From an uncultured bacterium (GTDB lineage: Bacteria; Bacillota_I; Bacilli_A; RF39; UBA660): 34,795 nucleotides of DNA. The notes under the pieces are model-generated. The model was not told the DNA's origin and did no database searches. It saw only the letters and a list, made by a program, of their open reading frames with translations. Position numbers and translations under genes: made by a program. Each line of letters opens with the position of its first letter. Positions within the stretch are counted from its first letter, which is position 1. The stretch lies in the NCBI GenBank assembly GCA_949285875.1, contig CASDZZ010000012.1, positions 1-34,795 on the forward strand, written 5' to 3'. Shown here one piece after another: positions 30,258-34,681 of this stretch.

Positions 30258-31133
30258 ATGTCAAATAAAAAGAATTTAATAATAATTTATGTTTTTATTC
30301 TATTAGAACTTTTAATTTTAATAAATTCTAAAGAAGTTACGATAAACATTATTAAAAGTATAACAATTTTTAAAAATCGTGTTTTTCCTAGCCTTTTTCC
30401 AGCCATGATAATAGGAAGTCTACTAATTAAAAACAATATCCAAAACTTTATTCCAAATATAATTAATATTTTTTTTAAAAAGATATTTAACTTTGATAGA
30501 AATATGACTAGCCTGTTTATTATTTCTATATTTTCAGGTACCCCATCAAATGCTTTATTTATAAATGAATATCTAAATAAAGGGCTGATAAATGATAAAA
30601 CGGCTGAAAACTTATTATGCTGTACTCATTTTATAAACCCTCTATTTGTAATAAATGGAGTTGGAATAGGAATCTTTAATAGCGTCCAAATAGGTTTTAT
30701 TCTTCTATTTTTCCTATATCTTTCAAATTTTATTAAAGCCTTTATTTTAAGAAAAAAATTTACTACAACAAATACTTTTAATAAAAAAATAAGTAAAAGT
30801 AATTTTATAAATGACTTTCAAAATACTATCAAGGAAAGTATTTTAGCCTGCTTAAACATTCTTGGAATAATTATCATTTTTAATATACTAATTATTTTGT
30901 TAGAGAATATCTTTAGTCTAAGTATATCATTAAAGCTTGGACTTAACATATTATTAGAAATGACTTCTAGTACTATTTTACTTTCGTTTTTAAACATAAA
31001 CTTTTATTTAAAATTTATAATTTCTTATTTTATACTAACTTTTGGTGGATTATGCATTCAAATGCAAACTCTAAACATGTTACAAAATAAAAAAATAAGA
31101 TATTTTAAATACCTTATTTTTAGAATGCTTTAA
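30258..31133 (+). CDS. YlbJ-like sporulation integral membrane protein
   Basis: A 291-residue polytopic protein with about seven or eight helices. It has the markers of the YlbJ/nucleoside-recognition family: FKNRVFPSLFPAMIIGSLLI (about residues 38-57), SGTPSNALFINEYLNKGLI (about 94-112) and HFINPLFVINGVGIG (about 124-138). YlbJ contributes to spore formation in Bacillus; here the role is inferred. ATG 30258 follows AAAAGGAAAAT. It converges with the pilin-LRR gene, and the two stop codons overlap by four bases. Confidence 0.75.
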   Translation: MSNKKNLIIIYVFILLELLILINSKEVTINIIKSITIFKNRVFPSLFPAMIIGSLLIKNNIQNFIPNIINIFFKKIFNFDRNMTSLFIISIFSGTPSNALFINEYLNKGLINDKTAENLLCCTHFINPLFVINGVGIGIFNSVQIGFILLFFLYLSNFIKAFILRKKFTTTNTFNKKISKSNFINDFQNTIKESILACLNILGIIIIFNILIILLENIFSLSISLKLGLNILLEMTSSTILLSFLNINFYLKFIISYFILTFGGLCIQMQTLNMLQNKKIRYFKYLIFRML

Positions 31134-32227
31134 GGGCAGTTTTTTAAAAGCCTTAGAGTCACACGCGAATCATCAGCATCAATTACACCTTTTTCATGAA
31201 GCTTTTGACTCCAACCCCATTTAGATAAACTTAAAATACCGGTTTCTTCAAAAGCACGATAATTTACCATTTTAACAGTAGTAGGAAGACAAACATTAAC
31301 GTTTATACTATTTCCAGCAAATGATTTATACCCAATGTAAGTTATACTATCTAATATTTTAAAATCTTTAAGATTTAACCCTGCACCAGCGAATGCATAA
31401 GCATCAATTTTTACTATACTATCTGGTAATTGTAACTTATACCCAGATAAAATAGACGTGTTTTTATTAATTTCATATTGTTGCTCATATTTATTTAAGA
31501 AATTACTAGAACAATTAGTAGATTCCATCCAACACAATTCATAAGTATTAATATCTTGCTGCATTGCCAAGGTATTAGCACCTGAAGAAAAATATAAAAA
31601 CGCTCCAGGATAAATCTCAGTTGTTCCATCTGGTATCTTTAAAATTTTATTATGATCGGCATTAGGATTTTTGTAATACTTTATACCTTTTTCAGATAAT
31701 CCTACTAAAATAGTTTCATCTTTCCAAAGAAATAAGTCTTTACCATAAGTAATAACTTCATCGTCCGTTTCACTACCTCCTCCAGGATCAGTAGTACCAC
31801 CTTCATCAGGATCAGTAGTACCTCCCTCCCCAGGATTTTCTCTTCTTACTATAGCTTTATAAAAAGTTTTTGTTGTTCCTTCTGGGAATGTCACATTATA
31901 GCTAACCATATTATCTCTCCAAACAGAACCCTTTGTTATACTTGAACACTTTGCATCATAGCTGTAATTATCATTAACTTTAGTGCACATGCCATCTTCT
32001 ATATTATTTAAGTCTGTTCCAGTCGCTATTGCTTTATTTACTTTAGCATCTAAAATTCGAAAAGTATAAGAAACATTTATAAAATCATTAGTTTCTCTTT
32101 GAACAGAACCATATACTTTATTAACAGTTAAAAGTGTTTGAAAAAAATACACAACTGCAACTGATACTATTGCAAAGCTAACAATTAATTCAGCTATAGT
32201 TATACCATTATTATTTAATTTTTTCAT
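31130..32227 (-). CDS. prepilin-like protein with C-terminal BspA-type leucine-rich repeats
   Basis: A 365-residue protein. The N-terminus is a prepilin signal: MKKLNNNG cleaved before ITIAELIVSFAIVSVAV, with Glu at +5. A pilin-like stalk domain (about 30-135) leads to a Gly/Thr/Asp/Pro hinge (PGEGGTTDPDEGGTTDPGGG, about 135-155). Then come repeats of the LRR_5 type: IPDGTTEIYPGAF, LPDSIVKIDAYAFAG and ILDSITYIGYKSFAGN. This suggests an adhesive minor pilin or tip protein. Start ATG 32227 is chosen because GGAGG lies at 32234-32238, on the stop codon of the preceding pilin gene. Confidence 0.8.
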   Translation of the reverse strand: MKKLNNNGITIAELIVSFAIVSVAVVYFFQTLLTVNKVYGSVQRETNDFINVSYTFRILDAKVNKAIATGTDLNNIEDGMCTKVNDNYSYDAKCSSITKGSVWRDNMVSYNVTFPEGTTKTFYKAIVRRENPGEGGTTDPDEGGTTDPGGGSETDDEVITYGKDLFLWKDETILVGLSEKGIKYYKNPNADHNKILKIPDGTTEIYPGAFLYFSSGANTLAMQQDINTYELCWMESTNCSSNFLNKYEQQYEINKNTSILSGYKLQLPDSIVKIDAYAFAGAGLNLKDFKILDSITYIGYKSFAGNSINVNVCLPTTVKMVNYRAFEETGILSLSKWGWSQKLHEKGVIDADDSRVTLRLLKNCP

Positions 32228-32237
32228 TTTTAACCTC

Positions 32238-32759
32238 CTATAAATTACAATTTCTATTTGGGTTAGGATTATCAATTTTTATAGAAGCATATCTTTCCTC
32301 ATTAGTAACTTCATTTTTAAAAACTCCTATCAATCTATAAGATGTTGTATCATATGTTGTTCTCTTCATACGCTTTAAATATCTATTAAAATTATAGTTA
32401 TCACTACTACTAACCTCAGTCATGTAACCTGTTATATAAAGCTCAGTTAATTCAAATTCATTTGTAGTTTTTAATTTAAGTGAATTGTCTAAAGTAATTT
32501 CTGCTAATTCGTCGAGAGTATCGCATCCATTGTTTGTTTTTTCTATTATTATATTTTCAGCTTCATCCGCTTCTGATTTTAGGTCATATATAGCTCTTAA
32601 AGCATACAAATCCTCTGTTTGATCATAATATAAAGTTTGATTTTTGTAGTTATTATATAATTTTGAAATATTAGGATAAACAAACGCCATTACGGTAGTA
32701 ACAAGAGCTACTACTATTATAGTTTCTGCTAAGAAGAATCCTTTTTTATTCTTTTTCAA
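32238..32759 (-). CDS. type IV prepilin-like protein
   Basis: A 173-residue protein with a classic prepilin signal: a basic leader MKKNKKG, then FFLAETIIVVALVTTVMAFV with Glu at +5 after the Gly cleavage point. The rest is a soluble pilin domain with a C-terminal Cys. Start TTG 32759 has AAGGTGAT four bases upstream; the GTG at 32768 overlaps it. It is the first gene of a two-gene unit with the pilin-LRR fusion. Its genes for prepilin peptidase and the membrane platform are not in the window. Confidence 0.85.
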   Translation of the reverse strand: MKKNKKGFFLAETIIVVALVTTVMAFVYPNISKLYNNYKNQTLYYDQTEDLYALRAIYDLKSEADEAENIIIEKTNNGCDTLDELAEITLDNSLKLKTTNEFELTELYITGYMTEVSSSDNYNFNRYLKRMKRTTYDTTSYRLIGVFKNEVTNEERYASIKIDNPNPNRNCNL

Positions 32760-32908
32760 TTTTATCACCTTTTCTTTATTGATATCTTTTCAAATATATT
32801 ATATAATATTATTATAATAAAATCTAGAGTAAAGATAAAAATAATAAATAGTTATTTATAAAGTCTAGTAAAAGAATAAAAAGAATAATAAGGGAGAGCG
32901 AATTAACT

Positions 32909-34681
32909 ATGTTAAAGCAAATAGATTTTACTAAATTACCTATCACAGAAATTGTTAATGAAATAATTTACAACGCAGCTAAAGCTGGCGTTAGTGATAT
33001 GCACTTTGACCCTACTGAAACAGCCATAAGAGTAAGATTTCGTATTGATGGTGTATTAAGAGATTACATGGTGATACCACAAAACATAAAGAAAAATCTT
33101 ATAGCAAGATTAAAAATAATCTCAGGAATGGATATCACTGAAAGTAGGTTGCCGCAAGACGGTGCAATTAAAACTACCATTAAAGATCTTGAGTTAGACA
33201 TGCGTGTTTCTTCCTTACCAACTAATGTAGGAGAAAAAATAGTTATTCGTATTCTTGATTATTCTTCATCTTCTAAAGGACTTGAAAGTTTAGGTTTTTC
33301 ACCTAATAACCTTAAAAAAATGAAAAATTTAATAAAAGAACCTAACGGAATTATCTTAGTTACTGGAGCTACTGGTTCAGGTAAATCAACTACCGTATAT
33401 TCTTTACTACAAATTTTAAATACTCCAGAAGTGAATCTTATCACAGTTGAAGATCCAGTAGAAATGGGTATTGAAGGTATTAACCAGATTCAAGTTAATA
33501 GTGAAATTGGACTTACTTTTGCTAGCGTTTTAAGATCTATTTTACGTCAAGACCCAGATATCATAATGATCGGAGAAATTCGTGATGATGAAACTGCTAA
33601 AATTGCCGTAAGAGCTTCTATTACTGGACACTTAGTTTTATCAACACTACATACTAATAACGCATTAAACACTATAGAACGTTTAACTGATATGGAGGTT
33701 GAAAGGTACTTACTAGCTAGTTCTTTAAATGGTGTTGTATCTCAAAAACTAGCAAGAAGAATATGTCCTCACTGCATGAAAAAAAGACCTGCAATAGCTT
33801 ATGAAAGAAAATTAGTAAAAGCTAACCTAGGAATTGATATAACTGAGTTATCTTATGGTGAAGGATGCTCTGAATGTGTTGGCGGTTATAAAGGAAGAAT
33901 CGCAATTCATGAAGTTTTAGTTTTATCTCAAGAAATTAGGGATGCCATAGCTAATGGAATGGCAAAAGAAGAACTAAGACATTTAGTGTATAAAGGAGAT
34001 ACTAGAACACTACTTCAAGATGGTTTAGAAAAAGTTGTGCAAGACAAAACTACAATTGAAGAAATTTTAAGATTAGTAGAATTAAGTGATGAGGATGTCA
34101 AAATTATAAATGAAACTTATCAACAAAAAGATGATGAAGCTTTAGACTCTTTAACAAATACTAATAATCAAGTTAAAATAGAAGTCAAAGAGCCTATCAA
34201 TAATACTATAATTAATCAAAGCAAAGCAGAACCAGAGTTAACTAGTAGCCCTTCAATAAATCAAGTAAAACAAAATAACGAACCTGCATCAATTCCTTCT
34301 ATTCCTGTAAAAAAAGATGAAAAAATAGATGAAGAAATTGAAGATTTAGAATTTATTAGTGAACCAATAAAAGAAGAAAAAATTAATATATCTACTCCTA
34401 AAATAGAAGATTCAAATTTAAATAGTTCTACTCAAAATGTCAGCAAAAATTTAGAGCCATTAAAAAAAGAAAATGAAAATAATATAAATAAACAAAATAT
34501 TCCTTCAAAATCTATAGAGCAAATATCTAATATATTGACCAACAATATCAATATGACACCTCCAAAACCTGTTTCCTCGGTTTCCAATTCAGGTTTTAAA
34601 CCCAAACCTATTAATCAAAATTTAATTAATAATAATTTTAGAAATTATATTATGAATAAACAAACTAATAATTTAAATTAA
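32909..34681 (+). CDS. PilB/GspE-family pilus assembly ATPase
   Basis: A 590-residue hexameric ATPase that powers pilus or pseudopilus extension. Residues about 25-120 form the N2 domain, Walker A is GATGSGKST (about 153-161), Asp box and Walker B DPDIIMIGEIRDDE, His box HLVLSTLHTN, and a zinc site from Cys 286, 289, 320 and 323 (CPHC ... CSEC). The N1 (MshEN) domain usual in PilB is absent. The last 190 residues (about 400-590) are a low-complexity, Asn/Ser/Pro/Lys/Glu-rich tail. It is divergent from the pilin genes, whose promoter region it shares. Confidence 0.9.
   Translation: MLKQIDFTKLPITEIVNEIIYNAAKAGVSDMHFDPTETAIRVRFRIDGVLRDYMVIPQNIKKNLIARLKIISGMDITESRLPQDGAIKTTIKDLELDMRVSSLPTNVGEKIVIRILDYSSSSKGLESLGFSPNNLKKMKNLIKEPNGIILVTGATGSGKSTTVYSLLQILNTPEVNLITVEDPVEMGIEGINQIQVNSEIGLTFASVLRSILRQDPDIIMIGEIRDDETAKIAVRASITGHLVLSTLHTNNALNTIERLTDMEVERYLLASSLNGVVSQKLARRICPHCMKKRPAIAYERKLVKANLGIDITELSYGEGCSECVGGYKGRIAIHEVLVLSQEIRDAIANGMAKEELRHLVYKGDTRTLLQDGLEKVVQDKTTIEEILRLVELSDEDVKIINETYQQKDDEALDSLTNTNNQVKIEVKEPINNTIINQSKAEPELTSSPSINQVKQNNEPASIPSIPVKKDEKIDEEIEDLEFISEPIKEEKINISTPKIEDSNLNSSTQNVSKNLEPLKKENENNINKQNIPSKSIEQISNILTNNINMTPPKPVSSVSNSGFKPKPINQNLINNNFRNYIMNKQTNNLN

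Follow-up and report, generated by a model that had tools for sequence, protein, structure and literature searches.

A prepilin with a BspA-type leucine-rich repeat module in a probable minor-pilin slot beside pilB whose cargo differs between species

Results

The locus beside pilB

The window (34,795 nucleotides, the whole stretch of DNA analysed) is contig C12 of a draft genome of 1.10 Mb in 46 contigs, estimated to be 90.65% complete. It holds a pilB gene, a pair of prepilin genes transcribed away from it (slots A and B) and a convergent gene for a membrane protein. P0001 fills a fixed slot, the second of the two prepilin genes. The features are as follows, with the evidence in brackets:

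32909..34681, plus strand, divergent: PilB/GspE-type extension ATPase (T2SSE E 7e-128; PilB/GspE E 1e-144)
32238..32768, minus strand: P0002, the companion prepilin in slot A, bare and ComGE-like (ComGE E 2.3e-5, below cut-off)
32239-32234, minus strand: SD AGGAGG of P0001 (sequence)
31130..32227, minus strand: P0001, modular prepilin in slot B of the pilB-divergent pair (open reading frame, 365 aa)
32204..32227, minus strand: P0001 prepilin leader MKKLNNNG, residues 1-8 (sequence; orthologous stalks above the N_methyl cut-off)
31835..32203, minus strand: P0001 pilin module, residues 9-131 (alignment and AlphaFold2)
31757..31834, minus strand: P0001 Gly/Thr/Asp hinge, residues 132-157, PGEGGTTDPDEGGTTDPGGGSETDDE (sequence; pLDDT <50)
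31592..31747, minus strand: head of the P0001 LRR module, residues 161-212, FLWKDETILVGLSEKG...IPDGTTEIYPGAF (common to nine paralogues)
31229..31438, minus strand: BspA-type LRR_5 match of P0001, residues 264-333 (Pfam PF13306; PDB 4fd0/4fs7)
30258..31133, plus strand, convergent: conserved 'Gate'-type membrane protein gene (Gate profile sub-threshold; synteny)

The original prediction had placed a prepilin fused through a hinge to leucine-rich repeats at 31130-32227, and these coordinates proved exact: P0001 starts at the ATG at 32227. The AGGAGG lies six bases 5' of this ATG, where it overlaps the stop codon of P0002, the prepilin gene before it. A longer reading from a TTG at 32275 was rejected, as it extends into that upstream gene. 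P0002 itself starts at either a GTG (32768) or a TTG (32759), the latter closer to its relatives. On the other side, the Gate gene overlaps P0001 by 4 bases and identifies the corresponding locus elsewhere in related species. PilB bears a long low-complexity C-terminal extension (window 34109-34681, residues ~400-590) that is absent or variable in most relatives.

The pilin part and the leucine-rich repeat module

P0001 begins with a class III signal peptide (MKKLNNNG/ITIAE-LIVSFAIVSVAVVYFF), comprising a short polar leader that ends in Gly(-1), a Glu at +5 and a hydrophobic stretch. PilD is predicted to cleave after Gly8, which would leave Glu at position 5 of the mature protein. The Pfam N_methyl profile scores 13.8 bits on P0001, below its cut-off of 21.2, and exceeds this cut-off on the orthologous stalks L166 (23.4 bits), L175 (27.4 bits) and L173. 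By alignment, the pilin module is homologous to the bare pilins of 114-148 aa found in sister species. Two AlphaFold2 models were built, one from a two-row alignment (pLDDT 46.7) and one from an alignment with LRR-only relatives (pLDDT 61.2), and the second was used throughout. It shows a long helix (residues 11-48) and strands (96-125) at pLDDT 64-88, with low confidence over 40-92; from 127 to 160 pLDDT falls below 50, so that the hinge is predicted to be disordered. Short strands then cover most of 161-212 and 258-330 at pLDDT ~75-89.

The C-terminal part matches Pfam LRR_5 (PF13306, for which we take IPR026906 to be the BspA-type entry) once, at E 3.3e-10 and 40.4 bits, above the cut-off of 27.7. 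Residues 269-342 match the solved BspA-like LRR proteins 4fd0/4fs7/4fdw (E 4e-6), and residues 264-338 match NF047961 (HupY/LrrG) at E 2.5e-7, far under the 1250-bit cut-off of that family. A Foldseek search of the better model against the PDB gave nothing significant, and the LRR fold of P0001 therefore rests on sequence profiles. The original prediction was to fall if a structure prediction showed no leucine-rich repeat fold; on this point a firm profile match stands beside an empty fold search. Eight other proteins of the genome resemble residues 151-328, the head motif and LRR region, with a best E of 6.6e-14. P0001 keeps the head motif IPxGTTEI. With about three repeats, its LRR part is the shortest copy in the genome and also the most divergent (branch 3.6 in the module tree); it lacks the C-terminal end that is conserved among the paralogues. 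G+C content is 29.6% in the cargo and 27.6% in the stalk, and a comparison with phage records returned zero matches. With a non-pilin C-terminal domain joined through a linker predicted to be disordered, P0001 has the make-up of a modular pilin, and the expectation that signal, stalk, hinge and LRR_5 repeats would be found in one chain was borne out.

Pilus machinery in the genome

PilC (T2SSF) and PilD (A24 peptidase) are encoded in tandem on contig C3, the single PilB-type ATPase in the window, and about a dozen prepilins across the genome, with tandem major-type prepilins on C1. The original prediction leaned on pilC, pilD and major pilin genes lying beyond the window and on a pilus platform being encoded at all; these genes are present. 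The T4a component set PilB, PilC, PilD and pilins is thus complete, as are the four conserved components of T4dP, namely ATPase, platform, peptidase and pilins (PMC12153270), and ComEC is encoded as well (E 7.5e-45). A comGA-comGG operon with ComG-family pilins was not found: pilB lies on C12 and pilC/pilD on C3. The draft genome (90.7% complete) yielded no PilT, its ATPases being the PilB-type one and one of Tad type, and every PilM match in it fell below cut-off. Pilus dynamics are uncertain for lack of PilT and a clear PilM.

Other pilin-related genes lie elsewhere in the genome. A separate Tad-type locus (L277, C1:60-67 kb) encodes a TadZ-like protein, a TadA-type ATPase, two T2SSF proteins and TadE-like short pilins. 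Three consecutive prepilins of ~630 aa (L026, L027 and L028, C3:29.4-35 kb) have long tails of Ig-like repeats, one of them with a thrombospondin-like stretch. A further modular pilin, on C29, is a prepilin-DUF6273 fusion (L024:274-1503, E 2.9e-7). Directly 3' of P0003, a prepilin on C20 discussed below, is another prepilin with a dockerin-like tail (L025:1492-1986, E 0.007, below cut-off).

One slot, different cargo

Every one of the 18 genomes of the genus encodes the P0001 stalk, and the 17 other copies are 43-58% identical to it. Slot B holds a bare pilin in 14 of the 18 and a pilin with an extension in four; where the contig extends far enough to tell, the bare pilins are likewise flanked by P0002 and the Gate gene. 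The hinge of P0001 begins in the alignment where the bare sister pilins stop; in this species, hinge and BspA-type LRR module are joined exactly at the end-point of the 14 bare pilins. The four extensions differ: LRR_5 in P0001, Peptidase_M23 in L166, and regions in L175 (313 aa) and L173 (251 aa) for which Pfam gives nothing beyond the prepilin motif. L166 (L166:444-1757, slot B of genome G203) has a Lys/Thr-rich linker followed by an M23 peptidase (E 5.5e-22) which retains the HGGND and HLH motifs; this pilus subunit may cut peptidoglycan. Within the genus, the PilB and Gate gene trees had too little support for counting cargo gains.

The same arrangement recurs across the family, in which 180 of 193 genomes have pilB. 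Among 80 pilB-upstream regions fetched, 60 have a divergent prepilin and 53 the pair. There are 28 bare forms in slot B beside two of 201-300 aa and 21 of more than 300 aa, and 43 bare forms in slot A beside one intermediate and 15 of more than 300 aa. Cargo recognised by Pfam comprises ALK_LTK_GRD (glycine-rich), Fib_succ_major (FISUMP), Laminin_G_3 (lectin-like), DUF285, DUF6273 and DUF7507; several cargo regions remain unknowns by Pfam. Given the differing cargo in this survey, P0001 represents the LRR_5 form of a minor-pilin slot with variable cargo. Prepilins divergent from pilB in two other genera (L081:293-1906 and L145:1046-2062) bear DUF285, another BspA-related repeat, so this locus has acquired more than one form of LRR-like cargo.

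One module, different stalks

About ten proteins of the genome carry this LRR module. Eight of them have it on a non-prepilin stalk, or apparently so where contig ends cut the gene, characterised by a short hydrophobic N-terminus and a GYAIFSESLN motif. The prepilin stalks that carry it are P0001 and P0003. The module of P0003 is 74% identical to that of P0005, a protein with the other stalk, over 288 residues (81.3% over 861 bases of DNA), and the two pair in the module tree with support 94/100; their stalks share background identity only. The P0001 module is 32-37% identical to the other copies and its position in the tree is unsure, which marks it as either old or rapidly changing. The pattern is repeated in a second species of the genus (G200): prepilin L355, with a stalk orthologous to that of P0003, bears a module of the same set, and so do L182, L351 and L353 on the other stalk. 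A 429-aa protein of G200 is identical to one in the MAG CAMMVQ010000006.1, labelled 'uncultured Mollicutes'.

On C11, a SipW-like signal peptidase is encoded close to bare paralogues of the second stalk. This cluster (L275:2836-8592) comprises three bare stalk-type proteins, the peptidase and one further protein, without profile match and presumably DUF5305-like; it is probably a second surface-fibre system. Profile searches against NCBIfam and PDB gave no identity for the second stalk, hence the label SipW/TasA-type is an inference drawn from its motif and the neighbouring signal peptidase. A search of openly accessible journal papers found none linking SipW, TasA and leucine-rich repeats.

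Among five of the other-stalk LRR paralogues (L012, L014, L018, L013 and L015, on C3, C36, C33, C22 and C6), DNA identity reaches 96% in the stalks and falls to ~70% in the modules. Contigs end within the stalks, and the C3 copy has stop codons between stalk and module. Gene conversion or assembly trouble may account for this pattern.

How common is the fusion

LRR_5 occurs in 90 of the 193 family genomes. A prepilin signal stands at the start of 11 of the 70 LRR_5 loci read, from at least nine other genomes; another 10 of the 70 are cut at the 5' end, and the sample is skewed towards high-scoring matches and holds a few duplicates. A pattern-based scan over all GTDB species found a prepilin start at none of 79 LRR_5 loci. 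The class of modular pilins has been described, with more than 1,200 members in 264 architectures (Raynaud 2021, PMC8179133). IPR026906, treated as an LRR domain in PMC5067614, is listed among the extra domains of the 15 commonest of these architectures (PMC8179133), so the architecture of P0001 is not new. The prepilin-LRR_5 fusion is a habit of this bacterial family, and it also exists elsewhere according to Raynaud et al. (PMC8179133). Of the original interpretation, then, the prepilin-LRR_5 chain and the platform stand, and the view of it as unusual is not supported, considering both this described class and the number of family genomes with such fusions.

Discussion

We consider it probable that P0001 serves a minimal monoderm type IV filament as a modular minor pilin, encoded in a slot with exchangeable binding cargo. 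PilD would remove the eight-residue leader, and the helix would then pack into the filament beside P0002, at or near the tip. The hinge could let the LRR module stand off the pilus shaft and bind a protein or glycan ligand on the host, a food particle or a neighbouring cell. Exchanging the cargo on a constant stalk would alter what the pilus holds and not how it is assembled. Tip position and adhesion are suggested by analogy with PilB and PilC of Streptococcus sanguinis, which have host proteins and glycans as ligands and are placed at the tip in models (PMC8179133, PMC9934059).

The main rival, compatible with this reading, is that the filament is a Com/T4dP-like DNA-uptake pilus, whose LRR cargo either binds surfaces as a secondary role or influences how DNA is captured at the tip. 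The presence of ComEC, the resemblance of P0002 to ComGE, a machine reduced to the four T4dP components (PMC12153270) and the lack of PilT and PilM matches above cut-off all speak for it. However, pilB and pilC are on different contigs and outside any comG operon, P0002 and other matches stay under the NCBIfam cut-offs, and the many large cargo domains at the locus (lectin-like, M23, glycine-rich) are unexpected for DNA capture; we regard a competence role as possible rather than probable. P0001 might also stay outside any filament, either anchored in the membrane or in a short pseudopilus-like form, with the prepilin helix as a mere membrane anchor for an LRR surface protein. The genome does use a plain signal-anchor (SipW-type) stalk interchangeably for the same module, and there is no retraction ATPase, but Gly(-1), Glu5, a PilD in the genome and the constant association with pilB and a second prepilin throughout the family make this unlikely.

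Turning to the module itself, the LRR of P0001 could be decaying, since it is the shortest and most divergent copy, lacks the C-terminal end and has no fold match in the PDB. Taken further, the tail would be the degenerate remnant of a recently acquired cargo, without binding function. Against this stand an open frame over 200 codons without a stop, the clear LRR_5 profile match, the conserved head motif and a cargo G+C close to that of the stalk, and we find it quite unlikely. That P0001 is a chimera of a bare pilin and an LRR fragment, made during metagenome assembly, is very improbable. The genome is a draft in which LRR paralogues break contigs, but the neighbours on both sides (pilB and P0002; the Gate gene) match the syntenic locus in sister species, and the P0001 module, ~33% identical to the paralogues that cause the repeats, is too distant for a mis-join.

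Modular pilins are known mainly from domain-architecture catalogues and one studied species. Here, one syntenic locus in one genus shows a bare pilin beside several cargo-bearing forms, hence the grafting step becomes traceable and cargo can be tested against a natural bare stalk. That one genome has closely similar LRR modules on a pilin and on an unrelated stalk suggests that its fibre systems draw on binding domains in common. We tentatively propose, as a possibility and not a favoured outcome, that a single set of exchangeable cargo domains (LRR, lectin-like, glycine-rich, M23 and others) recombines between two independent surface display systems, the type IV pilus and the SipW/TasA-type fibre, and that the fixed minor-pilin slot next to pilB receives it on the pilus side. 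How monoderm pili cross peptidoglycan is an open question (PMC6916266), on which the M23 cargo of one species bears.

Comparison with known systems

The second stalk recalls SipW-dependent TasA-type proteins, an inferred relative, in its short hydrophobic N-terminus with the GYAIFSESLN motif and in the proximity of its bare paralogues to a SipW-like signal peptidase; unlike them, it matches no profile or PDB entry and carries a C-terminal LRR cargo. P0001 shares LRR_5 repeats with BspA-type LRR surface proteins (PF13306) and with the streptococcal LRR adhesin HupY/LrrG (NF047961). Those proteins are secreted, lipoproteins or wall-anchored, whereas the anchor of P0001 is a pilin. The Com pilus (T4dP; minor pilins ComGD-ComGG, PMC12153270) is comparable in its minimal machine, the ComGE-like companion P0002 and the presence of ComEC in the genome, but the present genome is without a comG operon and its minor pilins bear large cargo.

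PilB (vWA) and PilC (lectin) of S. sanguinis, also a monoderm, share with P0001 the order of class III prepilin signal, pilin module (in P0001 a predicted one), linker and non-pilin C-terminal domain. P0001 differs from them in its BspA-type LRR cargo and in a long Gly/Thr/Asp hinge in place of their nine-residue loop. Moreover, its slot adjoins pilB, its cargo varies between species of one genus, and the cargo module of its set occurs on a non-pilin stalk too. What is new here is this context: a constant slot with differing end-domains, and a module that is also carried by an unrelated stalk.
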